Assembly (NCBI GenBank): GCA_028818385.1 | Contig: JAPPNY010000252.1 | Coordinates: 1 to 14,589 of the forward strand | Reading direction: 5' to 3' | DNA length: 14,589 bases | Origin: Spirochaetaceae bacterium | GTDB lineage: Bacteria; Spirochaetota; Spirochaetia; SZUA-6; Bin103 | In this document: positions 1,451 to 13,150 of the stretch, piece after piece | How positions within the stretch are numbered: position 1 is the first letter of the stretch | Layout of the letters: each line of letters opens with the position of its first letter | Notes under the pieces: model-generated | Told to the model about the DNA's origin: nothing | Database searches by the model: none | The model's input: the letters and a program-made list of their open reading frames with translations, nothing else | Translations under genes and position numbers: made by a program

Positions 1451-2035
1451 GCCGCCCCCGCCGGCAGCGACTTGATTGTCTGGTGGTAAGGGTAGCGCCG
1501 GTGGAGTGGCCGTCTCTCCCTGCCATCGCCAGCGCGTATTTACCGACCCCCGCACCTCGTCGACCCGGACGTCGGCGGGGATGCGGCTCAAGTAGAGCTG
1601 CTCTCCCGAGAACTCGTCCGTGCATCGCGCGTAGCGGCAGTTGGCGCGCAACTCGCGGTTGGCGACGCGGTCGACCGATCCTTCCTCCCAACTCACCGTG
1701 ATTGCGCTTTCGTCGAACGACACCTCCGGCTTCGCTTTGCGAGCCGGCCTTGTTGCGGCCCAGTGCCGCACCACCACGCCGGACGCGCGTGCGCGAGCCC
1801 TTCGTCCCCGGCATAGGCGCCTAAGGTGCCACCATACGCGGCCGGATCGAGCGGAAGCTGGCAAAGTAGCGGCACGGCGAAGCGCTCGGCCAGCGCCTCG
1901 TCCCCGCCTTCGTCGAACACGTTGTGATGCCGACCTTCGCCGTCGGCGAACCAAGCTATGTTCTCACGCTCAGGATCGGCACCTCGACCTTTTCGAACAT
2001 CACGATGCTACCTCCAGGGCCTGCGGAGGTGGGCC
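1447..2035 (-). pseudogene. Truncated, multiply frameshifted Mrp/NBP35-type P-loop ATPase with C-terminal DUF971 domain
   Basis: Recognisable Mrp blocks appear in order on the minus strand, each in a new frame: PPPQALEVA (about 2032-2006), SIVMFEKVEVPILSV (about 2009-1962), ENIAWFADGEGRHHNVFDEGG followed by LAERFAVPLLCQLPLDPA, then a DUF971/GBBH-like-N domain starting KPEVSFDESAITVSWEEGS and including NRELRANCRYARCTDEFSGE and IPADVRVDEV, then VGKYALAMAGRDGHSTG, then RYPYHQTIKSLPAGAA with a TGA at 1449-1447. Mrp/ApbC proteins carry iron-sulfur clusters; fusion to DUF971 is known. The Walker A/N-terminal half is missing: upstream of about 2035 no Mrp sequence is visible in any frame, and the divergent sensor operon begins. 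Five frame changes all fit loss of one base modulo 3. I call it a pseudogene; sequencing error could explain the frameshifts but not the missing 5' half. Confidence 0.7.
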
Positions 2036-2056
2036 ACACCGCCGGCCGGACTCAGA

Positions 2057-2086
2057 TTGACACGGCGCGGAGGAGCGCGCACGGTA
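2057..2086 (+). promoter_or_regulatory. Candidate promoter of the sensing operon
   Basis: A perfect TTGACA (2057-2062) is followed 14 bases later by GCGCACGGTA (2077-2086); a -10 role would fall on ACGGTA at 18-base spacing, a poor match to TATAAT. The same arrangement with the same spacing precedes the ABC operon (9583-9612), which is the main support. A GGAGGAG at 2069-2075 lies too far (17 bases) from the ATG at 2093 to be its usual ribosome site. Confidence 0.35.
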
Positions 2087-2092
2087 CTCCCC

Positions 2093-2920
2093 ATGGAGAG
2101 GATCGCGGCCGTGGGGCAACCACAATCGCCGGAGGTCCGCTTCAGCCTCCGTCCCCGCGTCGCGGCGAGCATCTGCTTCATCCTGGCTTCCGCCGTCACC
2201 CTGACGGGACTGCTGAACCACTACGAATACCAGAGGTACCTGGCCGGCTTGCTGCGCGACCGGCACGCGCTCGTGCTGCAGGACATCGGTCACAACATAG
2301 AGGCGTCGCTGTCGCTGGGACTGGCCCTGAACGCGTTGCCGGGCGTGGACGGGGACCTGTTGGACAGCATGCAGCAGCACGACCAGGTGCTCTCGATCGA
2401 GATGTTCGACGAGCACGGGATCGTCCTCTACGGCACCGACGAGAGCCTGCGCGGTGACCTGGTGTCCGAGGACTGGGTCGCCGCGTGGAACACGGGCGAG
2501 CCGGTCTGGTCGCGGCTGGAGGCGGACGCGCACGTGGTCGGCCTGCGGGTGGAGAACAGCCTGGGGCAGGCGGTCGGATCGCTCGCGCTGCGTTTCTCAC
2601 GCGCGGAGTTCGACGAGAACGTGCAGGACATGGCGCTGCGGATCGCCGGTCTGTGCGCGGCGGTCGTGGTCGGGTTCGTGCTGCTCGGCGCCGTCCTGTC
2701 GGTGTTCGTGACGCGGCCGTTGCGGCAGCGCCTGCATGCGATGCAGGCGCCCATCGATCCGGGGATCGAGATCGATGCCGGGATGGACCCCGATCCGCAC
2801 GCCGTGCGGTTCGCGGAGACGACGGAGGCGGCCAACCGAGCGGTTTCCAACGGGGCCGAGGAGATCCGCCGGATCGCGCGGGAGGCCGGCCGGCAGGTCG
2901 GCTCCGGCAGCGCGCGATGA
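2093..2920 (+). CDS. Two-TM sensor-like membrane protein without output domain
   Basis: I do not recognise a named family. The 275-residue protein has a short basic N-terminus, TM1 at about 22-41 (VAASICFILASAVTLTGLL), an extracytoplasmic domain at about 42-180 and TM2 at about 182-206, then TRPLRQRLHAM, which resembles the opening of a HAMP linker, and a short hydrophilic tail with no catalytic domain. The outer domain (IGHNIEASLSLGLALNAL, then IEMFDEHGIVLYGTD) looks like a single-Cache-type sensor and resembles the corresponding part of the next protein. Start: the ATG at 2093 is chosen because the coding-looking sequence and TM1 begin just after it; the upstream open frame is antisense to the Mrp remnant. 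Its TGA overlaps the next ATG (ATGA), implying coupled translation. Likely role, inferred: ligand-sensing or accessory subunit for the neighbouring sensor-transporter. Confidence 0.7.
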   Translation: MERIAAVGQPQSPEVRFSLRPRVAASICFILASAVTLTGLLNHYEYQRYLAGLLRDRHALVLQDIGHNIEASLSLGLALNALPGVDGDLLDSMQQHDQVLSIEMFDEHGIVLYGTDESLRGDLVSEDWVAAWNTGEPVWSRLEADAHVVGLRVENSLGQAVGSLALRFSRAEFDENVQDMALRIAGLCAAVVVGFVLLGAVLSVFVTRPLRQRLHAMQAPIDPGIEIDAGMDPDPHAVRFAETTEAANRAVSNGAEEIRRIAREAGRQVGSGSAR

Positions 2921-5007
2921 GCGCGGCTTCCGCCGGTGTCCGCCGCGGCAGCGCGCCGGACCGGACCCCGGAAAGATCCGAGCGGGGCGTCTACCGCAGC
3001 GTGATCCTGCGGCTGGCCGGCCTGACGGCGCTGCTGCTGATCCTCTCCCAGGGTGCCCTGTCGTTGCTGCTGGCCCGGACCTTCGAGGACACCCTGCTTC
3101 CCGAGGTCCGGCGCAAGGCGGAGGTCGCCGGCGAGTTGGTGGCGGAGCAGATCGGCTATGCCGTGTCGCTGGGCATCCCGCTGGGCTCGCTGGTGAAGAT
3201 GGACGAGTTCCTGGACGGCGTGCTCGCGGACAACGAGGACTTCACGTACGTGGCCGTCCTGGATCCGGGCGGCGCCGTGCTCTATGCGCGGGGCATCGCG
3301 GCAGAGTCGCCCCGGGACGCCGCAGGCGGGGAGCTGGTGGAGCTGCCGATCAGGCTCGAGGACGGGAGGCAGGTGGCGTCCCTGCGGGTGCAGGTGCAGG
3401 AGGGTACGGTGCGCTCCGAGCTTCAGGCGCTGCGCCTGGACATCGGCACCGTGCTGCTGGTCACCCTGCTGATCGGGATCGAGTTGCTGGTGGCCCTGGT
3501 GGTGGTCAGGGTCTCGGGGCCGATTCGCCTGGCGGACCGCCTGCTGGAGCTCAGCGCCAGGGGCGACTTCGGCAGCCGCTTCGGCGTGCGCCACCGGGAC
3601 GAGGTGGGCCGCTTCGGACAGCTCATCAACACCGCGCTGCACCGCATCAACACCGCGTTCGCGGACCTGGTGGAGGAGGCCGAGGACGCGCACGAGGTGC
3701 AGCTCGACCGCGGCGTCCAGCGCCGCATCCGCGACGTGCTCGACGACATCAGGGCGCGCTTCCACTTCGCGATGCCCGGCGCGGAGAACACGCTCGTTTC
3801 CCGCTCGCCCATGGACGTGCGGATTCCGTTCTTCCTGTTCATGCTGGCGCAGGAGATCTCGCGTCCGTTCCTGCCGCTGTTCTTCAATGAGATCTACGTG
3901 CCCATCGCCGGCCTGAGCCGCGAGGTGGCGATCGGCCTGCCGATCACGGCGTTCATGGTCATGGTGCTCATCGCGACCCCGATGGTCGGATCGCTGACCG
4001 ACCGCATCGCGCCGCGCGGGATGTTCGTCGCCGGCATCGTCCCGTCCGTTGCCGGCCACGTGGGCACGGCGTATGCGACGACGATCGTCGAGGGACTGCT
4101 GTGGTGGACGCTTTCCGGTCTGGGCTACGGCGTCATCTTCATCTCCGCCCACGCCTACGTCGCCCAGCATTCCGAGCGTTCGAGCCGGGCGGTGGGCATG
4201 TCGGGCTTTCTGGGGGCCGTGTTCGCCGCCTTCGTGTGCGGCCCGGCGATCGGCGGGATGCTGGCGGGGCGCCTGGGCTACCAGAACACCCTGCTGGTAG
4301 CCGCCGCGCTCGCGGCGGTAGCCGCCGCGGCCGCGCTCATGACCATCGATCCGGGAGGCGTGCGCCGCGTGAGCCGCGGGAAAGGCGGCCTGCGCGGCTG
4401 GCTCCGTTTGCTCGGGCACCGCCGGTTCATGGCCGTGACGGTGTTCACGGCGTTGCCGAGCAAGTTCGTGCTCGGCGGCCTGTTCTTCTACCTGGTGCCG
4501 CTCTACCTGGCGTTCCTCGACAACACGCAGTCGAACATCGGCCGGGTGATGATGGTGTACGGCATCGCGTGCGTGGTGGTCACGCCGCTGGTCGCTCGAG
4601 CCGCGGATCAGCTCAGGCGGCCGCGGCTGCTGATGATCGCCGGCAACTGCATCCTCGGCGTGGGGTGCGCGCTGCCGGCGCTGACGGACGCGACCGGACT
4701 GGTGCTCGCGTCGGTGGCCCTGATGGGAAGCGGGTTCGCGATCGTGACCGTGCCCCAGCTCGCCGTGATTCAGGAGATCGCGCAGGAAGCCAGCGGCGAG
4801 GTGGGAATCAGCCCGGGCGGGATCGTCGGCATGTTCCGCACCCTGGAGCGGATCGGCACCGCGGGAGGAGCGGTGGTGGTAGGGGCGGTGGCGGCTGCCA
4901 CGGCGTACGGGCAGGCGATGCTCGCCGTCGGCGTCCTGGTGCTGATCTGCACGGCGGTCTATGTCGTGTTGAGCCGCGCCGGCGCGCCGGCGCGGGAGGC
5001 GGCATGA
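2917..5007 (+). CDS. Cache-like sensor-HAMP fused to a 12-TM major facilitator superfamily transporter
   Basis: This 696-residue protein joins a receptor front end to a transporter. Residues 30-53 form TM1, 54-174 an extracytoplasmic Cache-like domain (IGYAVSLGIPLGSLVKMDEFL, VAVLDPGGAVLYA), 176-198 TM2, and 199-250 a HAMP-like linker (GPIRLADRLLELSARGDF, DEVGRFGQLINTALHRIN). A charged helical stretch leads to about 300-690, an MFS domain with many hydrophobic segments and a clear motif A, GSLTDRIAPR, at about 358-367. A single MFS protein is usually about 400 residues, so the extra 300 are the sensor half. Start is the ATG at 2917, overlapping the previous stop; no strong ribosome site, consistent with coupling. 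It ends in ATGA with the next gene. The substrate is unknown. Inference: transport activity may be gated by the sensor, or the MFS part may act as a membrane signal module towards the SpoIIE protein downstream. Confidence 0.85.
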   Translation: MSAASAGVRRGSAPDRTPERSERGVYRSVILRLAGLTALLLILSQGALSLLLARTFEDTLLPEVRRKAEVAGELVAEQIGYAVSLGIPLGSLVKMDEFLDGVLADNEDFTYVAVLDPGGAVLYARGIAAESPRDAAGGELVELPIRLEDGRQVASLRVQVQEGTVRSELQALRLDIGTVLLVTLLIGIELLVALVVVRVSGPIRLADRLLELSARGDFGSRFGVRHRDEVGRFGQLINTALHRINTAFADLVEEAEDAHEVQLDRGVQRRIRDVLDDIRARFHFAMPGAENTLVSRSPMDVRIPFFLFMLAQEISRPFLPLFFNEIYVPIAGLSREVAIGLPITAFMVMVLIATPMVGSLTDRIAPRGMFVAGIVPSVAGHVGTAYATTIVEGLLWWTLSGLGYGVIFISAHAYVAQHSERSSRAVGMSGFLGAVFAAFVCGPAIGGMLAGRLGYQNTLLVAAALAAVAAAAALMTIDPGGVRRVSRGKGGLRGWLRLLGHRRFMAVTVFTALPSKFVLGGLFFYLVPLYLAFLDNTQSNIGRVMMVYGIACVVVTPLVARAADQLRRPRLLMIAGNCILGVGCALPALTDATGLVLASVALMGSGFAIVTVPQLAVIQEIAQEASGEVGISPGGIVGMFRTLERIGTAGGAVVVGAVAAATAYGQAMLAVGVLVLICTAVYVVLSRAGAPAREAA

Positions 5008-6032
5008 GAAGGCTCACGTCACCCTGCGGGCTCGCGGCAGCCATCTTCGTCGCGCTTGCCGGCGCGGCGGTCGCCCAGATTCCGGCCGGCGCCCGGACCC
5101 CGGACGATCCGTTCCACGTGTTCCTGGTGGTGTGGCGCGGCGAGACCGACGTCGAGCACGGCTTCCGGGCCCACATGCGGGAGCGCGGCATCCCCGTGCG
5201 CTACACGCTGCGCAACCTGGAGCAGAACCGGGGCAATGTCCCCGGGATCGTCGCCGAGATTCGCTCCGCCCAGCCGGACCTCGTGCACACCTTCGGCACC
5301 TCGGCGACGCTCGGCATCCTGGGTCCCCGCGACGCCGCCGACCCCACGGCGCACGTGCAGGGGATACCCGGCGTGTTCTCGATCGTGGCCTACCCGATCG
5401 AGGCCAACATCGTCGAGAGCTTCGAGACCACCGGCCGTCCGGTCACCGGCACGGCGTTTCTGCCGCCGGTCAAGAAGCAGCTCGACGCCCTGCTGCAGTA
5501 CCGCTCCGTCGAGCGCCTGGGGGTGGTCTACAACTCCCTGGAGCGCAACTCGTTGATCAACATCGATGAGCTCCGCAAGGAGGCGGAGGAGCGCGGCATC
5601 GAGCTGCTGGAGGCGCCGGCGCCGCTCGACGCCGACGGCAGGCCGGATCCCGGCCGGCTGACAGAGGTCGTCAACGGGCTGGCGGACGACGGAGCGGAGT
5701 TTCTCTACATGGGTCCCGATTCGTTCGTGACCCGCAACGACGTCCGCATCACGGAGGCGGCGGTCGCGCGCGGCATTCCCGTCTTCGCCGGCACCGAAGC
5801 GAGCTTCGCGGGTTCGCATGCGATGCTCGGCTTCGTGAGCCCCTACTACCTGGTCGGCAAGCTGGCCGGCGCCCAGGCCGAGCGGATTCTGGTCGATGGC
5901 GAGCCGCCGGAGGACCTCCCGGTCCGCTCGCTCGGCCGGTTCTCGCTGGTAATCCGCATGTCGGTGGCGCTGGATCTGGGGATCTATCCTCCGCTGGGCC
6001 TGCTGCGCGTGGCGCAGGTGGTGGTGGAGTAG
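5004..6032 (+). CDS. Secreted ABC_sub_bind-family periplasmic binding protein
   Basis: This 342-residue protein has a classical signal peptide (MRRLTSPCGLAAAIFVALAGAAVA, cleavage predicted after AVA at 24) and a two-lobed type I periplasmic-binding fold of the ABC_sub_bind (PF04392, TrpX-like) family: FLVVWRGETDVEHGFRAHM, then DLVHTFGTSAT, LGVVYNSLERNS, PVFAGTEASFAGSHAMLGF and a C-terminal IYPPLGLLRVAQVV. Family members feed ABC importers (some bind aromatic amino acids) and others stand beside sensor proteins. Here there is no permease or ATPase; the neighbours are a sensor-transporter fusion (ATGA overlap) and a SpoIIE phosphatase 5 bases downstream. GGGAGG at 4994-4999 is its ribosome site. 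Inference: it presents a small ligand to one of the flanking Cache-like receptors. The ligand cannot be read from sequence. Confidence 0.85.
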   Translation: MRRLTSPCGLAAAIFVALAGAAVAQIPAGARTPDDPFHVFLVVWRGETDVEHGFRAHMRERGIPVRYTLRNLEQNRGNVPGIVAEIRSAQPDLVHTFGTSATLGILGPRDAADPTAHVQGIPGVFSIVAYPIEANIVESFETTGRPVTGTAFLPPVKKQLDALLQYRSVERLGVVYNSLERNSLINIDELRKEAEERGIELLEAPAPLDADGRPDPGRLTEVVNGLADDGAEFLYMGPDSFVTRNDVRITEAAVARGIPVFAGTEASFAGSHAMLGFVSPYYLVGKLAGAQAERILVDGEPPEDLPVRSLGRFSLVIRMSVALDLGIYPPLGLLRVAQVVVE

Positions 6033-6037
6033 GTCCG

Positions 6038-8554
6038 ATGGGCCTCAAGGCGCGGATCGGGGTCATCGTCGTCGTGTTCATGGCGGTGATGGTGGCCGGC
6101 CTGGTGCTCGCCGGGCGCCAGCGCGAGCAGGCGCTGCGCGACCAGCTCGACCGCACCGCCATGACCGGCAGCCGCGCGCTCTGGAGCAAGATCGTCGAGA
6201 CCGGCGTACAGCGCATGCGCGAGCGCGTGCCGATCGTCGCGGAGCACCGGGCGCTGCGCGCCGCCCTGGCCGGGGGGGACCGGGGCGAGATCTCGCAGGC
6301 GGCGCAGGCGGCGCTCAGCACCCTGCGGCGCACCGGTGACGTGACCCGCCTGGACCTGGTCTCGCCGGCCAGGGAGGTGCTGTACTCCTCGCAGCCGGCA
6401 TTCGAGCCGGCCGCGGCTGCCAGCGACGAGGCGCTGGCGCGGATGATCGAGCGGGGATGGACCGGCGGCGGCGTGGCGATCGACGCCGAGCGCAACGTGA
6501 CGCTGTCGGTCGGCTTTCCCCTGCACGGCGCGGACGGCGCGACGCTGGCGGTGGCCGTGCTGGCGACCGACATCCTGGAGGCGCTGACCGAGCTGAGGGA
6601 GGACACCGGGGCGGAGGCGCTGATCGTGAACCGGCGCGGCCGCCTGCTGGTGGGGACCGATCCGGCGATCTGGGAGTTCATCCGCGAGACGGGATGGCTG
6701 CCCGGAAGCACGTCCGAGCCGGTCCGCTCGGGCGACCAGGTGTTCTCGCACGCCGCGTTCCCGCTCGACGCCGAGCTCGGCAACCTGGTGGCGAGCGTGG
6801 TCACGGTGCAGGACGTGAGCGCGGTCTACGCCGGCCAGCGGCGCGTCAGCCTGATCACCGCGCTGGCGGGGGCGGGATTCGTGCTCGCATCGCTGGTCGG
6901 GCTCACTCTCTACCTGCGCGGCGCGCTGTCCCGTCTGACCGAGGGCGTCGTGGTGCTGGACGCGCTGTCCCGCGGCGACACGCAGGCGACCGTTGCGGTC
7001 AGCGAGGAGGAGTCGGACGACGAGGTGGCGCGCATCGCCCGCGCCGTGAACACCTTCCGGACGCAGACGCTGACATTGCGCCGGCACCGCCGCCGGGCGC
7101 TGCTGCGCCGGCGCCAGCAGGAGCGGTTCATTCAGGGCGAGATGACTCGCCTTGCCGACACCCTGAACGAGGAGGAGCGGCGGGACATCCTCAACGACCT
7201 TGCCGAGGTGCAGGCGCCGGCGGCCGCGGTGGAGGTGGACGCGGCCGGCGACAACGACAGCGGCAACGAGCTGCAGATGATCGGGCTGGCCTTCCAGAAG
7301 ATGACCAGCCGGGTCGGCCGCCAGCAGGAACGGCTGACGACGCTGGTGGCCCAGTTGCAGGAGGCGCTGCGCACCAGGACCGCTTACATGGCCCTTCAGC
7401 GCGATCTGCAGATCGCCAGCCGGGTGCAGCGCTCGTTCCTGCCCGGCGAACGCTTCGAGGCGCCGGGCGTCAAGATCCAGGCCGCCATGCATCCCGCCAA
7501 GGAAGTCGGCGGGGACTTCTACGACTTCTTCCGGCTGGACGAGAACCGCATCGGCGTCGTCGTCGGCGACGTCGCCGGCAAGGGCGTGCCGGCGTCGATG
7601 TTCATGGCGGTTACGCGCACGGTCATACGCGCCACCGCCCGGCAGGTGGAGCACGGTCCCGGCGAGTGCCTGCGGATGGTCAACGACACCCTGGTCGAGG
7701 CCACCGCCGGGGACATGTTCGTGACGGTCTTCTACGGCGTGTACGACGTTCGCGACGGCAGCTTCGTGTACGCGAACGGCGGCCACAACTCGCCGGCGCT
7801 GGTGACCGACGGAGGGGTGGAACGGATCCCGCTGACCGGGGGCGTCGCCCTGGCCATGTTCGACGGGCTCACCTATGACGAGGCGGCGGTGAGCGTTCCG
7901 CCCGGCGGCAAGCTGTTCGTCTATACCGACGGCATCCCCGAATCGGCCGACGTGACCGAGGAGGAGTACGGCTACGAGCGCATGGAGGACAGCCTCCGGG
8001 ACAGCGCCGGCCGCGGCACCGGCGACACGCTGGAGATGATGCTGCGATCGATCGAGGAGTTCGCCGGCGAGGCGGCTCAGTTCGACGACGTCACCATGGT
8101 CGTCCTCGGCCGCGAGACGGTCGAGGACGAGATCGCGGTCCGGCGCTTCTCGCTGCGCAACAACCGCGCGGACCTGCCCCGCATCGGCGAGGAGATGCGG
8201 GCGTTCGCCGAGAGCGCGGGCATCGGCCAGACCGGCGCAGGGCACCTCCGGCAGGCGCTGGAGGCGGTCGTGATCGATGCGATCGACGAGCGGCTGTCGG
8301 CGGTCAGCGAATACGAGATCGCGGTGTCCGCCACGCTCGACGGCGGCGTGGCGGAGGTCACGGTGGAGGATGACGGAGGCGCATACGATCCGCTGGAGGA
8401 GCCCGCGTTGGCGGACGGGAGCGGACCGGGTGAAGCGGAGGAGCCGGCAAGCCTGGGAGCGGGGCTGATGCGCCGCTCGCTGGTGGACGAGGTGTCCTAC
8501 ATGCGCGTGGGCGAGCGCAATCGGCTCACGCTGCGCAAACGGGTCGATGCATGA
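6038..8554 (+). CDS. Cache-HAMP-SpoIIE (PP2C-type) phosphatase with C-terminal GHKL-like domain
   Basis: A membrane-bound RsbU-type phosphatase of 838 residues. TM1 at 8-26, an extracytoplasmic double-Cache-like sensor at about 27-265, TM2 at about 271-293, and a HAMP region at about 295-350 followed by a basic helical linker. The SpoIIE domain starts near 450 (QIASRVQRSFLPG at 458-470) and keeps the metal-binding motifs GGDFYDF (491-497), GDVAGKG (510-516), YTDG (629-632) and DDVTMVVL (683-690), so phosphatase activity is likely. Residues 703-836 resemble an RsbW-type GHKL ATPase but its N box is altered (LEAVVIDAID where EExxxN is expected) and its G2 loop reads SLGAGLMRRSL. Known role of the family: dephosphorylate a STAS anti-anti-sigma factor to free a sigma factor; that partner is encoded next. 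Ribosome site GGAGTAGG overlaps the previous stop. Confidence 0.9.
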   Translation: MGLKARIGVIVVVFMAVMVAGLVLAGRQREQALRDQLDRTAMTGSRALWSKIVETGVQRMRERVPIVAEHRALRAALAGGDRGEISQAAQAALSTLRRTGDVTRLDLVSPAREVLYSSQPAFEPAAAASDEALARMIERGWTGGGVAIDAERNVTLSVGFPLHGADGATLAVAVLATDILEALTELREDTGAEALIVNRRGRLLVGTDPAIWEFIRETGWLPGSTSEPVRSGDQVFSHAAFPLDAELGNLVASVVTVQDVSAVYAGQRRVSLITALAGAGFVLASLVGLTLYLRGALSRLTEGVVVLDALSRGDTQATVAVSEEESDDEVARIARAVNTFRTQTLTLRRHRRRALLRRRQQERFIQGEMTRLADTLNEEERRDILNDLAEVQAPAAAVEVDAAGDNDSGNELQMIGLAFQKMTSRVGRQQERLTTLVAQLQEALRTRTAYMALQRDLQIASRVQRSFLPGERFEAPGVKIQAAMHPAKEVGGDFYDFFRLDENRIGVVVGDVAGKGVPASMFMAVTRTVIRATARQVEHGPGECLRMVNDTLVEATAGDMFVTVFYGVYDVRDGSFVYANGGHNSPALVTDGGVERIPLTGGVALAMFDGLTYDEAAVSVPPGGKLFVYTDGIPESADVTEEEYGYERMEDSLRDSAGRGTGDTLEMMLRSIEEFAGEAAQFDDVTMVVLGRETVEDEIAVRRFSLRNNRADLPRIGEEMRAFAESAGIGQTGAGHLRQALEAVVIDAIDERLSAVSEYEIAVSATLDGGVAEVTVEDDGGAYDPLEEPALADGSGPGEAEEPASLGAGLMRRSLVDEVSYMRVGERNRLTLRKRVDA

Positions 8555-8615
8555 CGATGCATGAGCGTCCGGTCGACCCGAGTGATGGTTTTCGGCTACC
8601 ATCGGAGGCCACGAC

Positions 8616-8634
8616 GCGGCGCGGCAGGCGCCGC
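8616..8634 (+). other. Hairpin just upstream of the STAS gene
   Basis: GCGGCGC (8616-8622) and GCGCCGC (8628-8634) form a perfect 7-bp stem with a 5-base loop, 6 bases before the GGAGAAGG ribosome site. There is no T tract, so it is not an intrinsic terminator. It could influence translation or mRNA processing. A smaller inverted repeat, GATGGT/ACCATC, lies at 8584-8603 in the same gap (8555-8652). Confidence 0.35.
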
Positions 8635-8652
8635 ATGACGGGAGAAGGATGA

Positions 8653-8991
8653 GTGCAAATCAGCAGTGAGCGCGACGGCAGCGCGTTGATCGTCGCCGTC
8701 GACGGTCGCATCGACGGCAGCAATTCCCAGGAATTCCAGGACCGGTTCGAGGAAGTGGTCGGCGACGACGATTCCGCGGTGATCCTGGACATGGACAAGC
8801 TTACCTACATCAGCAGTTCCGGCCTGCGGGCGACGCTGCTGCTCGCCCGGAAGCTGCAGCGGCAGCAGGCGAAGTTCGCCATCTGTGCGCTCTCGCCGTC
8901 GATCAAGGAAGTGTTCGAGATCAGCGGCTTCGACCGCATCATCCAGGTGCACGCCTCCAGGGAGGAAGCCACCCAGGCGGTGAGCGCCTGA
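8653..8991 (+). CDS. STAS-domain anti-anti-sigma factor (RsbV-like)
   Basis: A 112-residue single STAS domain, the normal size for RsbV/SpoIIAA proteins: a beta strand MQISSERDGSALIVAVDG, RIDGSNSQEF, then VILDMDKLTYISSSGLRATL. The family's phosphorylated serine sits just before GL, here Ser56 in ISSSGL; the usual DSSG is SSSG. Known role: in the unphosphorylated form it binds the anti-sigma kinase and releases the sigma factor; the kinase inactivates it and a SpoIIE phosphatase restores it. Both partners flank it. Start is GTG at 8653 with GGAGAAGG 4-5 bases upstream; the nearby ATG at 8649 is in another frame and stops after six codons. It follows the phosphatase by 98 bases and precedes the kinase by 114. 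Confidence 0.9.
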   Translation: MQISSERDGSALIVAVDGRIDGSNSQEFQDRFEEVVGDDDSAVILDMDKLTYISSSGLRATLLLARKLQRQQAKFAICALSPSIKEVFEISGFDRIIQVHASREEATQAVSA

Positions 8992-8999
8992 CATCGATG

Positions 9000-9087
9000 G
9001 GTTCCGTGGGGGCGACCACCGGCCGCACGGAACCTCCGCGCGGCGGCGAGAGCCGCGCATGAGGCGCTCGCGCCGGAGGCGGCGCGA
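9000..9087 (+). other. Three consecutive inverted repeats between the STAS and kinase genes
   Basis: Three perfect stems fill the 114-base gap: GGTTCCGTG/CACGGAACC (9000-9008 with 9026-9034, 17-base loop), GCGCGGC/GCCGCGC (9038-9044 with 9052-9058) and TCGCGCC/GGCGCGA (9068-9074 with 9081-9087). None is followed by a T tract. They could stabilise or separate the messages and so set the ratio of antagonist to kinase. The last two are GC-only and may partly reflect base composition. Confidence 0.4.
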
Positions 9088-9105
9088 ACGGGGGAGGCTC
9101 CGGGC

Positions 9106-9531
9106 GTGAGCGCCGACCTGCATCTGAAGCTGGACGCCGACCCTGAACGGCTTTCGGACATCACGGATGCCATCGAGGAACTGGGAGAGCGCGAGCGGTG
9201 GCCGCCGGACTTCCTGTTCCGCATGAACCTCGTGCTCGAGGAGATGACCCTCAACGTGATGACCCACGGCCGCGAGGCCGGGGCGAGCGAGCTGGAGGTC
9301 ATCGTGGCGTGCGACGCGGACACCGTCACCATCGAGATTTCCGACGACGGCCCGCTCTTCGATCCGCTTCAGGACGCTCCGGTCCCCGATACGGACGCGG
9401 CGCTCGACGACCGCCCGGTCGGCGGCCTGGGCGTCCACCTGGTCCGCGAGATGATGGACGAGGTCAGCTACCGCTACGAGGACGGCAGGAACCGTCTCCT
9501 GTTGAAAACCAGCAAGACAGATAACGCTTGA
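9106..9531 (+). CDS. RsbW-like anti-sigma regulatory factor (GHKL serine kinase)
   Basis: A 141-residue stand-alone GHKL ATPase of the RsbW/SpoIIAB type. It has an intact N box (LVLEEMTLNVMTHG, with Glu45-Glu46, Asn50 and His54), a G1 box ISDDGPLFDPL at about 78-88 and a G2 box GGLGVHLVREMMDEVSY at about 106-122. Family role: binds a sigma factor, or another target, and phosphorylates the STAS antagonist on serine; the antagonist is encoded immediately upstream. No sigma-factor gene is in the window, so the final target is unknown. Start is GTG at 9106 with a strong GGGGAGG site 8 bases before. Its sequence resembles the C-terminal domain of the upstream phosphatase (both have a D-x-G-x-x-[FY]-DP box and a DEVSY ending), but here the catalytic residues are kept. 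Confidence 0.88.
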   Translation: MSADLHLKLDADPERLSDITDAIEELGERERWPPDFLFRMNLVLEEMTLNVMTHGREAGASELEVIVACDADTVTIEISDDGPLFDPLQDAPVPDTDAALDDRPVGGLGVHLVREMMDEVSYRYEDGRNRLLLKTSKTDNA

Positions 9532-9620: not shown

Positions 9621-10574
9621 ATGCGGAACGCCGTGTCCACGGCTTCCACCCTGACCAGACGAACCCCTTTGGCGGCGTTGTGGAGGCGGATCAAGCTCGA
9701 ACGCGCTTGGTACGCCATGATGCTCCTCCCGGTCATCTACCTCGTCATCTTCCACTACGTGCCGATGGGCGGCATCGTCGTCGCGTTCAAGGACTATCGG
9801 ATCGCCAAGGGCGTGTTCGGCAGCGACTGGGTCGGCTTCAAGTGGTTCATCCAGTTCTTCGAGTCGTTCTACTTCTGGCGGCTCATGCGCAACACGCTGC
9901 TGATCAGCTTCTACACCATCGTCTTCGGCTTTCCCGTGCCGGTCGTCTTCGCGCTGATGCTCAACGAGATACGCATCGTCCCGCTCAAGCGGATCGCGCA
10001 GACCGTGAGCTACCTGCCGTACTTCGTCTCCCTGGTGATCATCGTCGGCATGCTGGTCACGTTCCTGTCGCCGAACAGCGGCGTCGTCAACGTCGCCATC
10101 AAGTCACTGGGCGGCGAGCCGGTCAACTTCATGGGCCAGCAGCGCTGGTTCCGGCCCCTCTACATCGGATCCCACATCTGGCAGTGGTTCGGCTTCAGCT
10201 CGATCATCTATCTGGCCGCAATCGCCGGCATCAGCCAGGAGCTCTACGACGCGGCGGAGGTGGACGGCGCCTCGCGCATCCAGCGGATCCGTTTCGTCAC
10301 CGTTCCCGGGATGGCGCCGACGATCATCATCCTGCTCATCCTGAACCTCGGGCACGCGATGTCCGTGAACTGGGAGAAGAACCTGCTCATGTACTCGCCG
10401 GTCATCTACGAGGTGGCCGACGTGATCGACACCTACGTCTACCGGCGCGGCATCGTCAGCGGCGAATACAGCTTCGGGGCGGCGGTCGGGCTGTTCAAGA
10501 ACCTGGTCAACTTGGTGTTTCTCTTTGTCTTCAATCGGCTGGCGCGCCGGTTCACCGACACCTCGCTCTGGTGA
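9621..10574 (+). CDS. LplB-type carbohydrate ABC transporter permease
   Basis: A 317-residue inner-membrane permease, the usual length of LplB-like (binding-protein-dependent, MetI-fold) proteins. The N-terminal region LERAWYAMMLLPVIYLVIFHYVPMGGIVVAFKDY is characteristic of the LplB branch. About six membrane segments follow, and the ATPase-contact EAA loop is seen at about 207-233 (ELYDAAEVDGASRIQRI, then VTVPGMAP). Together with the next permease it forms the channel for a sugar or oligosaccharide. There is no strong ribosome site before the ATG at 9621; a weak AGTAGG is 7 bases away, and the promoter-like block lies directly upstream. The stop is 7 bases before the next ATG, so the two are co-transcribed. 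Confidence 0.92.
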   Translation: MRNAVSTASTLTRRTPLAALWRRIKLERAWYAMMLLPVIYLVIFHYVPMGGIVVAFKDYRIAKGVFGSDWVGFKWFIQFFESFYFWRLMRNTLLISFYTIVFGFPVPVVFALMLNEIRIVPLKRIAQTVSYLPYFVSLVIIVGMLVTFLSPNSGVVNVAIKSLGGEPVNFMGQQRWFRPLYIGSHIWQWFGFSSIIYLAAIAGISQELYDAAEVDGASRIQRIRFVTVPGMAPTIIILLILNLGHAMSVNWEKNLLMYSPVIYEVADVIDTYVYRRGIVSGEYSFGAAVGLFKNLVNLVFLFVFNRLARRFTDTSLW

Positions 10575-10581
10575 GCCTGCG

Positions 10582-11484
10582 ATGACGGACCGAGTCGGAG
10601 TCCGCAGGGCGCTCACGGTCGAGGATGTCCTGGTCGACACGTTCGTCTACCTGGGCGTGGGGCTGGCCTTCGTCGTCACGCTCTATCCGTTCGTGTTCGT
10701 GCTAAGCATGTCGATCAGTGATCCGGTGGCCGTCGCACGGCGGGAGATCTTTCTGCTGCCCAAGGGATTCAGCCTGGACGCCTATCGCACCGTGCTGAAC
10801 GATCCGACCGTCATCCGCAGCTACTACAACACGATCTGGTACACCAGCGTCGGCACCGCGCTCAACCTGGTGTTCACGGTCATGGCCGCCTATCCGCTTT
10901 CCAAGCGCAATTTCTCGGCACGCGGCGTGCTGATGTTCCTGTTCGTGTTCACGATGTTCTTTTCCGGCGGCCTGATCCCGCTGTTCGTGCTGGTGGTCAA
11001 GCTGGGGCTGTACGCGACGCGCTGGGCGATCGTGATCCCGACGCTGATCGCCATGTTCAACCTGATCATCTGCCGGACCTTCTTCCAGACCCTGCCGGAG
11101 GACCTGTTCGAGTGCGCCCGCATCGAGGGCGCGGGCGAATGGCGGATCGTCTGGAAGATCGTGCTGCCGCTGTCCAGGCCGATCGTCGCCGTGCTCATCC
11201 TCTTCTACGGGATCGGCCACTGGAACAGCTTCTTCCCGGCCCTTCTCTACCTCCCGGATGCAGACCTGCAGCCGATCCAGATCTATCTGCGTCGGGTGCT
11301 CATCCAGGCGTCGCCCGAGGCCGTGCAGCAGTTCGAGACCGGCGAGTCGGGCAGAGGCGTCATGGCGATGGTGCAGATCAAGTTCGCGGTGATGATCGTG
11401 GCGGTGCTGCCGATCCTGCTGCTGTATCCGTTCCTGCAGAAGTATTTCGTCAAGGGCGTGCTGATCGGCGCGCTGAAGGGGTGA
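10582..11484 (+). CDS. LplC/YtcP-type carbohydrate ABC transporter permease
   Basis: A 300-residue second permease, matching the size of LplC/YtcP proteins. TM1 is at about 20-42, followed by the family's SDPVAVARREIFLLPKGFSLDAY segment, further membrane segments and the EAA loop at about 174-200 (DLFECARIEGAGEWRI, then VLPLSRP). The C-terminus ends KYFVKGVLIGALKG, a tail typical of this permease group. The longer open frame upstream overlaps the previous gene; the ATG at 10582 is preferred because it sits 7 bases after that stop and gives the usual N-terminus. No ATPase gene follows; in related Lpl-type systems a shared ATPase is encoded elsewhere. Confidence 0.92.
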   Translation: MTDRVGVRRALTVEDVLVDTFVYLGVGLAFVVTLYPFVFVLSMSISDPVAVARREIFLLPKGFSLDAYRTVLNDPTVIRSYYNTIWYTSVGTALNLVFTVMAAYPLSKRNFSARGVLMFLFVFTMFFSGGLIPLFVLVVKLGLYATRWAIVIPTLIAMFNLIICRTFFQTLPEDLFECARIEGAGEWRIVWKIVLPLSRPIVAVLILFYGIGHWNSFFPALLYLPDADLQPIQIYLRRVLIQASPEAVQQFETGESGRGVMAMVQIKFAVMIVAVLPILLLYPFLQKYFVKGVLIGALKG

Positions 11485-11540
11485 ATCAGTTCGACATCGG
11501 AGCGAGCAGGTTGGTTGGTGGACCAATCGCAAACCACCGG

Positions 11541-11567
11541 ACGACGGAACGAAAACGACGGAACGAA
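11541..11567 (+). repeat. 13-bp perfect direct repeat in the leader of the binding-protein gene
   Basis: ACGACGGAACGAA occurs at 11541-11553 and 11555-11567, one base apart. The second copy runs into the AAGGAG ribosome site of the 11579 gene. It may be an RNA or protein binding site, or simply a local slippage duplication. A partial inverted repeat TTGGT-GG-ACCAA lies at 11515-11526. Confidence 0.5.
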
Positions 11568-11578
11568 GGAGAACCGAA

Positions 11579-13150
11579 GTGAAGCTACCGAGAATCGTGG
11601 TCCTGGGCACGGCGCTGGCGATCGCGGGCGCAGGCGCCTTTGCCACGGGTACCGAAGAAGCGATGGCGCCCGGCGAGCTGCCGACGCTGACCGTGGCCAC
11701 CCATACCGGTTGGGCCGCGCTCCTGCAGCCGGCCAGCAACGATCTGCCGGTCTACCAGGAGCTGGAGCGGCTCAGCGGGGTGCACATCGAGTGGGAGAAC
11801 ATCCAGGTTGGCAACTACGCGGAGGTGATGCGCGCGCGGCTGGCGGCCGCCGTGAACCTGCCGGACGTGATCAACATGTCGCTGCTCGGCGACATTGGCC
11901 AGCATGGCCGTGACGGACTGATCATCCCGCTCAACGATCTGCTGGACTCGCACGCGCCCAACATCAATAAGTGGTGGAACACCGGCAGCAACGGCATCTA
12001 CAAGATCCTGGACACCAGCCCCGACGGCAACATCTACGGCGTGGGCAACTACGTGCTGCCGCACTACCTGTCCCAGGGGCCGCTCTGGAACGTGGTGTGG
12101 CTCGACGCGGTGGGCATCCCGGAGATGCCGGAGACGCAGGCCGACACGATGACGGCGCTGCGGGCGTTCCGCGATGGCGATCCCAACGGCAATGGCCAGA
12201 ACGACGAGATTCCCCTGGTGCCGGCCGCCGGGCGCGGCTACCTGCGGTTTCTGGGCAACATGTACGGGTTCGAGTACTCCATCGTTTCCGAGTACCTGGT
12301 CGACGACGACGAGCAGGTCTACTGGATCTTCCAGAGCCCGCGCATGAAGGAGTACCTCACCTTCATGAACCAGCTTTACACGGAGGGACTGCTCGACAAG
12401 GCGTATGCCACCGACAGTTGGACCGAGACGCTGGAGAAGGTCACCAACGACCTGGTCGGCCTGATCACCTGCTGGACCACGTTCGCCGGGACCTACAGCC
12501 AGGCGTCTCCGTCCGGCAAGCCCGACGGGTCGGTCCCGGTATTCGTGAACGGTCCGCCCATCGAAGGGCCGTACGGTGACAAGTTCTTCGTGAAGCGCGA
12601 GATCTTCGGCGGCGACCAGATGGGGATCACGAAGGATGCCAAGCAGCCGGAAGTGGCCATGCACTGGATCGACTTCATCCGCAACAGCGAGGAAGCCCTG
12701 ATGCTGCAGAACTTCGGCATCCTGGGAGAGACGTACAACATGGTCGATGGCGAAATCCAGACCGTCAGCACCGACGACAAGCCGTTCAACGACCGGCTGC
12801 TGGAGGTCGGTGGCAGCCAGCCGCCGTACGCTCACCTGCAGTGGGACTTCGCGTGGGACTATCGCTTTCCGAAGTGGGCTCTGGAGAACAACACCGCCTA
12901 CCAGGGGTACTACAAAGCGCCGTCCTTCCCGCAGGTGCGGCCGACGCTGGACGAGCAGGAGACGCTGAACCGCATCCTGACCGATCTGAATACCTACAAG
13001 ACGGAGTGGTTCGACAAGTTCGTCACCGGCCAGGAGCCGCTGAGCAAGTTCGACGAGTTCGTCGACGGACTGAACAAGCTCGGCGCCCAGGAGGTGATCG
13101 CCGTGCGCCAGCAGCAGTACGAGCGCTACGGAGAGCTGGTCGGCAGCTAG
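11579..13150 (+). CDS. LplA-like extracellular carbohydrate-binding protein
   Basis: A 523-residue family 1 solute-binding protein of the large LplA type that accompanies LplB/LplC permeases. The N-terminus MKLPRIVVLGTALAIAGAGAF is a signal peptide; there is no lipobox Cys, and the mature end ATGTEE is typical in style of spirochaete binding proteins. A DGDPNGNGQNDE stretch (199-210), a calcium-loop-like motif common in this family, precedes IPL. The substrate is probably an oligosaccharide or modified sugar; it cannot be specified. Start is GTG at 11579, with AAGGAG about 8 bases upstream. The 94-base gap after the permease is larger than the others in the operon and holds a 13-bp direct repeat, so the binding protein may be separately boosted. 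A strong hairpin terminator follows its stop. Confidence 0.92.
   Translation: MKLPRIVVLGTALAIAGAGAFATGTEEAMAPGELPTLTVATHTGWAALLQPASNDLPVYQELERLSGVHIEWENIQVGNYAEVMRARLAAAVNLPDVINMSLLGDIGQHGRDGLIIPLNDLLDSHAPNINKWWNTGSNGIYKILDTSPDGNIYGVGNYVLPHYLSQGPLWNVVWLDAVGIPEMPETQADTMTALRAFRDGDPNGNGQNDEIPLVPAAGRGYLRFLGNMYGFEYSIVSEYLVDDDEQVYWIFQSPRMKEYLTFMNQLYTEGLLDKAYATDSWTETLEKVTNDLVGLITCWTTFAGTYSQASPSGKPDGSVPVFVNGPPIEGPYGDKFFVKREIFGGDQMGITKDAKQPEVAMHWIDFIRNSEEALMLQNFGILGETYNMVDGEIQTVSTDDKPFNDRLLEVGGSQPPYAHLQWDFAWDYRFPKWALENNTAYQGYYKAPSFPQVRPTLDEQETLNRILTDLNTYKTEWFDKFVTGQEPLSKFDEFVDGLNKLGAQEVIAVRQQQYERYGELVGS

Follow-up and report, generated by a model that had tools for sequence, protein, structure and literature searches.

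Six consecutive genes of a Spirochaetaceae bacterium encode sensor domains, a sensor-transporter fusion, a binding protein and the three proteins of a partner switch: do they form a single signalling system and, if so, what is sensed and what is controlled? The genes, designated g1 to g6, are found on the + strand at positions 2093..9531 of contig JAPPNY010000252.1 (assembly GCA_028818385.1), whose 14,589 nucleotides were analysed over their full length and are called the window below. They are a conserved signalling unit, found together beyond chance. With a rough probability of 0.6, they are read here as one envelope-signalling unit in which a receptor for an amino-acid-like ligand drives the partner switch. 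Related loci are designated by L numbers and genomes by G numbers.

Gene order and conservation

The first four genes are closely coupled. ATGA overlaps join g1 to g2 (2917-2920) and g2 to g3 (5004-5007), and 5 bases lie between the stop of g3 (6032) and the start of g4 (6038); gaps of 98 and 114 bases precede g5 and g6, respectively. These coordinates, the common strand and the couplings had been given in an earlier note on the window; re-read from the sequence, they are correct. The same note took the six genes for a unit and named their co-occurrence in other genomes as the test; co-occurrence was found, as follows.

Genomes were scanned with the alignment of g2 alone, and the best 80 of 160 confirmed places were kept, some of which end at contig ends. 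Gene calls in these loci are picks based on G+C at third codon positions (GC3); the open reading frames of g2 and g3 are often over-long at their 5′ end. Neighbour families are sequence clusters, Pfam-tested on one to three members each. Closely related Azospirillum loci are counted separately in totals. Taxon names are those of the records, among them Bordetella parapertussis for L026.

Among the 80 loci, g2 has g1 beside it in 78, g3 in 75 and both in 73. A SpoIIE gene is found within 9 kilobases (kb) in 42, a STAS gene in 30 and a kinase gene, fused ones included, in 30. All six genes are present in 22 loci; the kinase is separate in 17 of these and present only as a fusion in the other 5. 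Restricted to the 54 loci flanked by more than 8 kb on each side, the counts are 54 for g1, 52 for g3, 52 for both, 34 for SpoIIE, 25 for STAS, 23 for the kinase and 19 for all six. The loci come from Spirochaetia and from Alpha-, Beta- and Gammaproteobacteria. The six-gene order is complete in all three spirochaete relatives, with a best-segment identity per gene to the window of 74-87% in L001 and 54-65% in L002 and L106.

PF04392, the family of g3, is single-copy and located in this locus in 5 of the 8 genomes tested; two copies are found in G005 and G006, and five matches in G007. SpoIIE is single-copy and in this locus in 3/8 genomes, and G001, G002 and G399 carry one more elsewhere. The unit is rare: 9/392 Spirochaetota genomes match at E <= 1e-60, one alone with a full-length match of the window type, and 9/398 Pseudomonadota genomes match.

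Switch proteins

The switch side of the unit is encoded by g4, g5 and g6. The product of g4 (6038..8554; 838 residues) includes an N-terminal sensor, a sub-threshold HAMP match, a SpoIIE domain (residues 501-692; Pfam, 7.2e-45) and a degenerate kinase-like domain (710-834). VGGDFYD, GDVAGKG, YTDG and DDVTM, the catalytic aspartate motifs of SpoIIE-type phosphatases, are all present in the window protein. When strict patterns for the four motifs were applied to 43 g4 proteins, 30 matched all of them, 12 missed one or two and one (L033) matched none. The product of g5 (8653..8991; 112 residues) is a STAS protein (1e-22) with the acceptor motif YISSSGLR; the pattern Y[IMV]SS[AS]GLR is found in 31/31 STAS proteins, window included. 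The product of g6 (9106..9531; 141 residues), the last gene of the conserved unit, is an RsbW-type kinase (HATPase_c_2, 1.4e-25) in which N-box and GGLG are intact. In agreement with the three switch proteins named in the earlier note, the phosphatase, acceptor and kinase motifs are all there.

That note counted one GHKL kinase. The intact one is g6; a second HATPase_c_2 domain at the C-terminus of g4 (710-834; 33.5 bits, cut-off 27.4) had been overlooked. This copy lacks GGLG and, at the expected place, the N-box asparagine in the window, L001 and L002, where the separate kinase is intact (by eye). The phosphatases of L007, L008, L009, L015 and L021 carry an intact fused kinase, and no separate kinase is found within 10 kb. 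Because the fused copy is degenerate in the three spirochaete loci and intact where a separate kinase was not found, the C-terminal domain of spirochaete g4 would be a former fused kinase that has been retained without catalytic function.

Probable input proteins

Three extracytoplasmic sensors had been claimed for the locus. Those of g1 and g2 are borne out by AlphaFold2 models; that of g4 rests on a match to dCache_1 (E 0.018 in the window, 7.7e-9 in L009) that is below the Pfam cut-off in both. An amino-acid dCache motif was sought in the g4 sensor and is absent. The product of g1 (2093..2920; 275 residues) gave no match in the Pfam scan. Its model (pLDDT 89) has a single PAS-like Cache domain, located outside the cytoplasm between two transmembrane (TM) helices, a short cytoplasmic coil and no output domain; WalK sensor domains are its closest neighbours in the PDB.

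The product of g2 (2917..5007; 696 residues) is a fusion of a Cache domain, a TM segment, a HAMP domain and a major facilitator superfamily (MFS) protein of 12 TM helices (MFS_1, 1.5e-32; model pLDDT 86). In an alignment of 25 members, HAMP is matched in 7 and sCache_3_2 in 3. A HAMP domain ahead of a complete MFS fold is unusual; either the exporter would be gated by a ligand, or it would have turned into a receptor. The nearest folds of the MFS half are the proton-coupled exporters VMAT2, NorA and MdfA. Lower in the list, within the top 50, are importers: the D-galactonate symporter, MCT1 and G6PT1. Besides its 12 helices, g2 has GPAIGG at residues 442-447, the antiporter motif called motif C (GPxxGG), conserved in 59-60 of 60 alignment rows. 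The site of the motif-B arginine in TM4 is Trp397 in g2 and arginine in VMAT2 and 3wdo (YajR). Tryptophan is found there in 46/60 rows, window included, and arginine in the other 14; the arginine is invariant in a 24-row proteobacterial alignment. Simple uptake is disfavoured because motif C is kept, and since the motif-B arginine is absent from the window clade, g2 of this clade may be no transporter. A role of the Cache-MFS protein as importer was rejected on its nearest folds, which are exporters, the importers in the top 50 notwithstanding. The earlier suggestion that uptake of a ligand sets the output is accordingly unlikely: the MFS half is exporter-like, with motif C present and the motif-B arginine missing.

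The product of g3 (5004..6032; 342 residues) is a PF04392 binding protein (ABC_sub_bind, 1.3e-22) with a signal peptide identified by eye. It matches solved PF04392 proteins, whose ligands are presumably amino acids, and weakly the TrpX model (64.2 bits, cut-off 390). These relatives and the TrpX model point to an amino-acid binder. As described earlier, the protein stands without partners of an ATP-binding cassette (ABC) importer: no PF02653 (BPD_transp_2) permease lies inside the locus in 5/5 related genomes, and none is found among the 10 window genes scanned. Two BPD_transp_1 permeases are encoded 3.6 kb farther along the window, with an SBP_bac_1 protein of their own. The unit shares its binding-protein family with PF04392 importers of the TrpXYZ type and differs from these in the missing PF02653 permease.

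Amino-acid enzymes in related loci

Enzymes encoded near the unit in relatives bear on the ligand. A GNAT-like family is represented in 32 loci and lies no more than 103 bases from g3 in 30 of these; its Pfam support is thin (Acetyltransf_1 just above cut-off in L067, no match in L014). An alanine racemase family is found in 8/80 loci, beside the unit in 7 and elsewhere in the locus in L022; in 6 of these 8 relatives the racemase adjoins the STAS and kinase genes. An ATP-grasp family occurs in 6 loci and a PanB-like family in 4. A formyltransferase follows g3 in L021 and an aminotransferase follows g4 in L059, once each. In type-2 spirochaete operons, the gene for the PF04392 binding lipoprotein has an Orr-like racemase gene upstream in all 6 loci whose contig is long enough, and the MFS gene has one for a Ddl-like ligase downstream in 7/8 loci (L103 is without it). 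Of the 7 type-2 spirochaete genomes with a locus Ddl, 6 encode another Ddl above cut-off elsewhere, and another alanine racemase above cut-off is found in 7 of the 8 genomes with a locus alanine racemase. Because of these further copies, the racemases and Ddl-like ligases of the loci look dedicated. Together the enzymes hint, by analogy, at an amino-acid-like compound as ligand. As the window has no such enzyme, its ligand class is inferred from relatives.

Outputs and neighbours in related loci

The same input genes are found with several outputs. The kinase of 8 alphaproteobacterial loci has a class III cyclase as fusion partner (4) or direct neighbour (4); this cyclase was Pfam-tested in L039 and L073 and assigned by hidden Markov model in the others. 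Cyclase and RsbW-type kinase form one protein in L039, L040, L073 and L079. A second Spirochaetota group (type 2), with a longer Cache-MFS protein, consists of L099-L105 and L107; apart from L107, whose contig is 4.3 kb, all 7 loci of this group have HAMP-cyclase genes no more than 6 kb away. L105 also has a cyclic-nucleotide-binding (cNMP-binding) protein. The neighbours in beta- and gammaproteobacterial g1-g3 loci include hybrid histidine kinases (10 loci), Ser/Thr kinases that carry Cache and HAMP domains (4), alpha/beta hydrolases (16) and histidine phosphatases (14); one member of each family was Pfam-tested.

Secretion-system genes are a further class of neighbours. In all 6 Azospirillum loci with TssK, a type VI secretion system (T6SS) gene, g1 starts 30-72 bases past TssK, and ClpV and VgrG lie upstream. 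ClpV and VgrG are also present in L010. The g2-g3 pair directly adjoins ClpV in L118 and L119, and the g1-g3 trio adjoins VgrG in L123 and L124. Receptor genes in or beside T6SS operons (ClpV, VgrG, TssK, TssB) were seen in L049, L064, L066, L067, L072, L074, L010, L118, L119, L123 and L124. The Thalassospira loci L014 and L025 adjoin export genes of a type III secretion system (T3SS); the L014 gene, re-read as L122, is above the SctU cut-off. In L014, L025 and L122 a GNAT-like gene, g3, g1, g2 and SpoIIE stand beside these export genes. That unrelated bacteria have the same receptor genes next to genes for T6SS, T3SS and cyclases suggests that the kind of signal is common to them.

Control of a sigma factor, one of the established roles named in the earlier note for such trios, did not find support. 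The SigBFG cut-off is reached in 0/8 related genomes; this cut-off is narrow (1/14 control genomes passes), and other sigma types are present. A SigB/F/G factor was rejected on this result as target of the switch; the result does not cover other sigma types. The target is inferred not to be a recognisable SigB/F/G factor.

Other neighbours were observed. A paralogous pair, consisting of a second g1 and a Cache-HAMP-TM protein (g2b), directly precedes SpoIIE in L049, L064-L067, L074, L080 and loci such as L039; g2b has an MFS match in neither of the two tested. A gene of the ammonium-transporter family lies near the unit in L002 (Pfam-tested, adjoining the unit), L009, L011 and L015 (by clustering) and L106 (by eye). 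At L001:7702-9081, a gene for a pyridoxal-phosphate (PLP) enzyme of Cys/Met metabolism ends 56 bases before g1.

Comparison with described systems

Among described sets, the Bordetella btr locus comes closest, by annotation rather than by sequence. Table 3 of PMC7498569 lists BtrV (STAS), BtrW (kinase), Alr (alanine racemase), BtrO (MFS transporter), BtrU (SpoIIE phosphatase) and BtrN ('ABC transporter'); the same source gives BtrM (gamma-glutamylcysteine synthetase), BtrA and BtrS. The function of the racemase, BtrO, BtrN and BtrM is listed there as 'unknown', and the switch proteins control T3SS secretion. STAS protein, kinase, SpoIIE phosphatase, MFS transporter and 'ABC transporter' in one locus are the likeness, matched by published annotation only; the racemase next to STAS and kinase genes recalls the six racemase-bearing relatives with that arrangement. 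The window differs in that racemase, extracytoplasmic function (ECF) sigma, anti-sigma and T3SS genes are not among its 14 proteins or pieces scanned. In a protein search with the proteobacterial g2 alignment, no match named Bordetella is among the best 120 of 482.

SiaABCD of Pseudomonas aeruginosa shares a membrane HAMP-PP2C phosphatase, a kinase and a STAS-like protein, with a diguanylate cyclase as output; in the part of PMC7647112 used here, no binding protein or MFS protein is named for Sia, and the window has no adjacent cyclase. The match of g4 to the SiaA model is weak (63.7 bits, cut-off 700). RsbU/RsbV/RsbW and SpoIIE/SpoIIAA/SpoIIAB share phosphatase, STAS antagonist and GHKL kinase (PMC8256260); compared with them, the window has a transmembrane sensor phosphatase and extra sensors, and SigB/F/G was not found in the 8 related genomes. 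For a partner switch of R. capsulatus no cognate sigma factor was found, according to PMC3999984, so outputs free of sigma factors have a precedent. Stimulation of transmembrane receptors by binding proteins is described as established and widespread in PMC9602780. The earlier statement that no described pathway has exactly this set agrees with the papers searched, in which no description of the exact six-gene set was found; it must be qualified by the btr locus, which lists similar gene types (PMC7498569 Table 3).

Proposed mechanism and alternatives

In the proposed mechanism, an amino-acid-like compound would be captured in the periplasm by g3, which would form a membrane receptor together with the Cache domains of g1, g2 and g4; binding protein and MFS receptor would thereby report to the phosphatase. 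Ligand occupancy would alter the HAMP-linked SpoIIE phosphatase of g4, so that phosphate is removed from g5. Unphosphorylated g5 would bind the kinase g6 and free the target of g6; re-phosphorylation of g5 by g6 would return the switch to its initial state. In g2, the efflux-like MFS half would be either gated by its own Cache-HAMP region or a receptor in the shape of a transporter. This reading of the input side is plausible; it concerns an under-studied receptor part attached to a variant of the known partner-switch type. For most partner-switching pathways the signal has yet to be identified, and the unit offers them an input side that can be put to the test; it also suggests what the MFS, 'ABC transporter' and racemase genes of the btr locus, all uncharacterised, may do.

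Several observations weigh against this reading. No SpoIIE gene was found within 9 kb in 38/80 loci (20/54 with long flanks); g1-g3 therefore also serve other outputs. Of the 4 genomes of the spirochaete family, 3 have g2, and it was not found in the other. No amino-acid enzyme stands beside the unit of the window, and among the 14 window proteins or pieces scanned there is no racemase, cyclase, sigma factor or other evident target. Given the 98- and 114-base gaps before them, g5 and g6 may be transcribed separately from the preceding genes; the promoter and terminator scan of the window is uninformative here (0 promoters; 1 terminator-like site, inside g2, where 2.0 are expected by chance).

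If the loci without SpoIIE and the gaps after g4 and g5 meant two independent adjoining operons, g1-g3 being a sensor or transport unit and g4-g6 a separate switch, the 5 bases between g3 and g4 in the window would be hard to account for, as would the co-occurrence across Spirochaetota and three proteobacterial classes and the meeting of single-copy families at the locus; this explanation is highly improbable. Defence is an unlikely alternative of another kind: the unit would sense an envelope-active amino-acid analogue or dipeptide, the efflux-like MFS would expel it, and the racemase and ligase paralogues and the GNAT-like enzyme of relatives would be tolerance genes. The resemblance of the MFS half to drug and amine exporters fits, as do the second Ddl and second alanine racemase in most genomes that carry the locus enzymes (6/7 and 7/8). 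The tryptophan that replaces the motif-B arginine in the window and most other rows does not, nor does the lack of such an enzyme in the window, and a phosphatase-STAS-kinase chain and secretion-system operons exceed the needs of a pump. Doubtful to a slightly greater degree is nutrient sensing, in which g3 and the Cache domains would report a common amino acid and the switch would set growth or stress responses in general: the closest relatives of g3 are solved PF04392 proteins and the TrpX model, and ammonium-transporter genes are found beside the unit in L002 and among the neighbours in L009, L011 and L015, but the unit contains no importer and no PF02653 partner, and its association with T6SS and T3SS operons argues for something else.

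The preferred reading, a receptor for an amino-acid-like ligand that drives the partner switch, can be extended very tentatively. The unit could belong, as one of several branches, to a family of receptors for amino-acid signals that has not been described, in which PF04392 protein and Cache-HAMP-MFS 'transceptor' sense a D-amino-acid-like or peptide-like compound, self-made or released from the wall. In enzyme-bearing branches they would perhaps also help to make and export it. Such receptors would be combined with any of several exchangeable outputs, namely partner switches, class III cyclases, kinases of the histidine or Ser/Thr type, and operons of a T6SS or T3SS.

Setting of the unit

ABC importer genes with their own SBP_bac_1 protein follow the unit on the + strand (9621..13150) and lie outside it. 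Their membership in the unit was considered and rejected, as they are not conserved in L001, L002 and L106: the first gene has a 44-residue match in L001 only and no match in L002 or L106. Upstream, on the - strand (2-1317 and 1254-1954), the genes are apparently frameshifted; an FGE-sulfatase piece is found there, next to a frame that has no match, as well as a GBBH-like_N piece. The G+C content is about 67-74% across the unit (window positions 2000-9000) and 59-65% outside.

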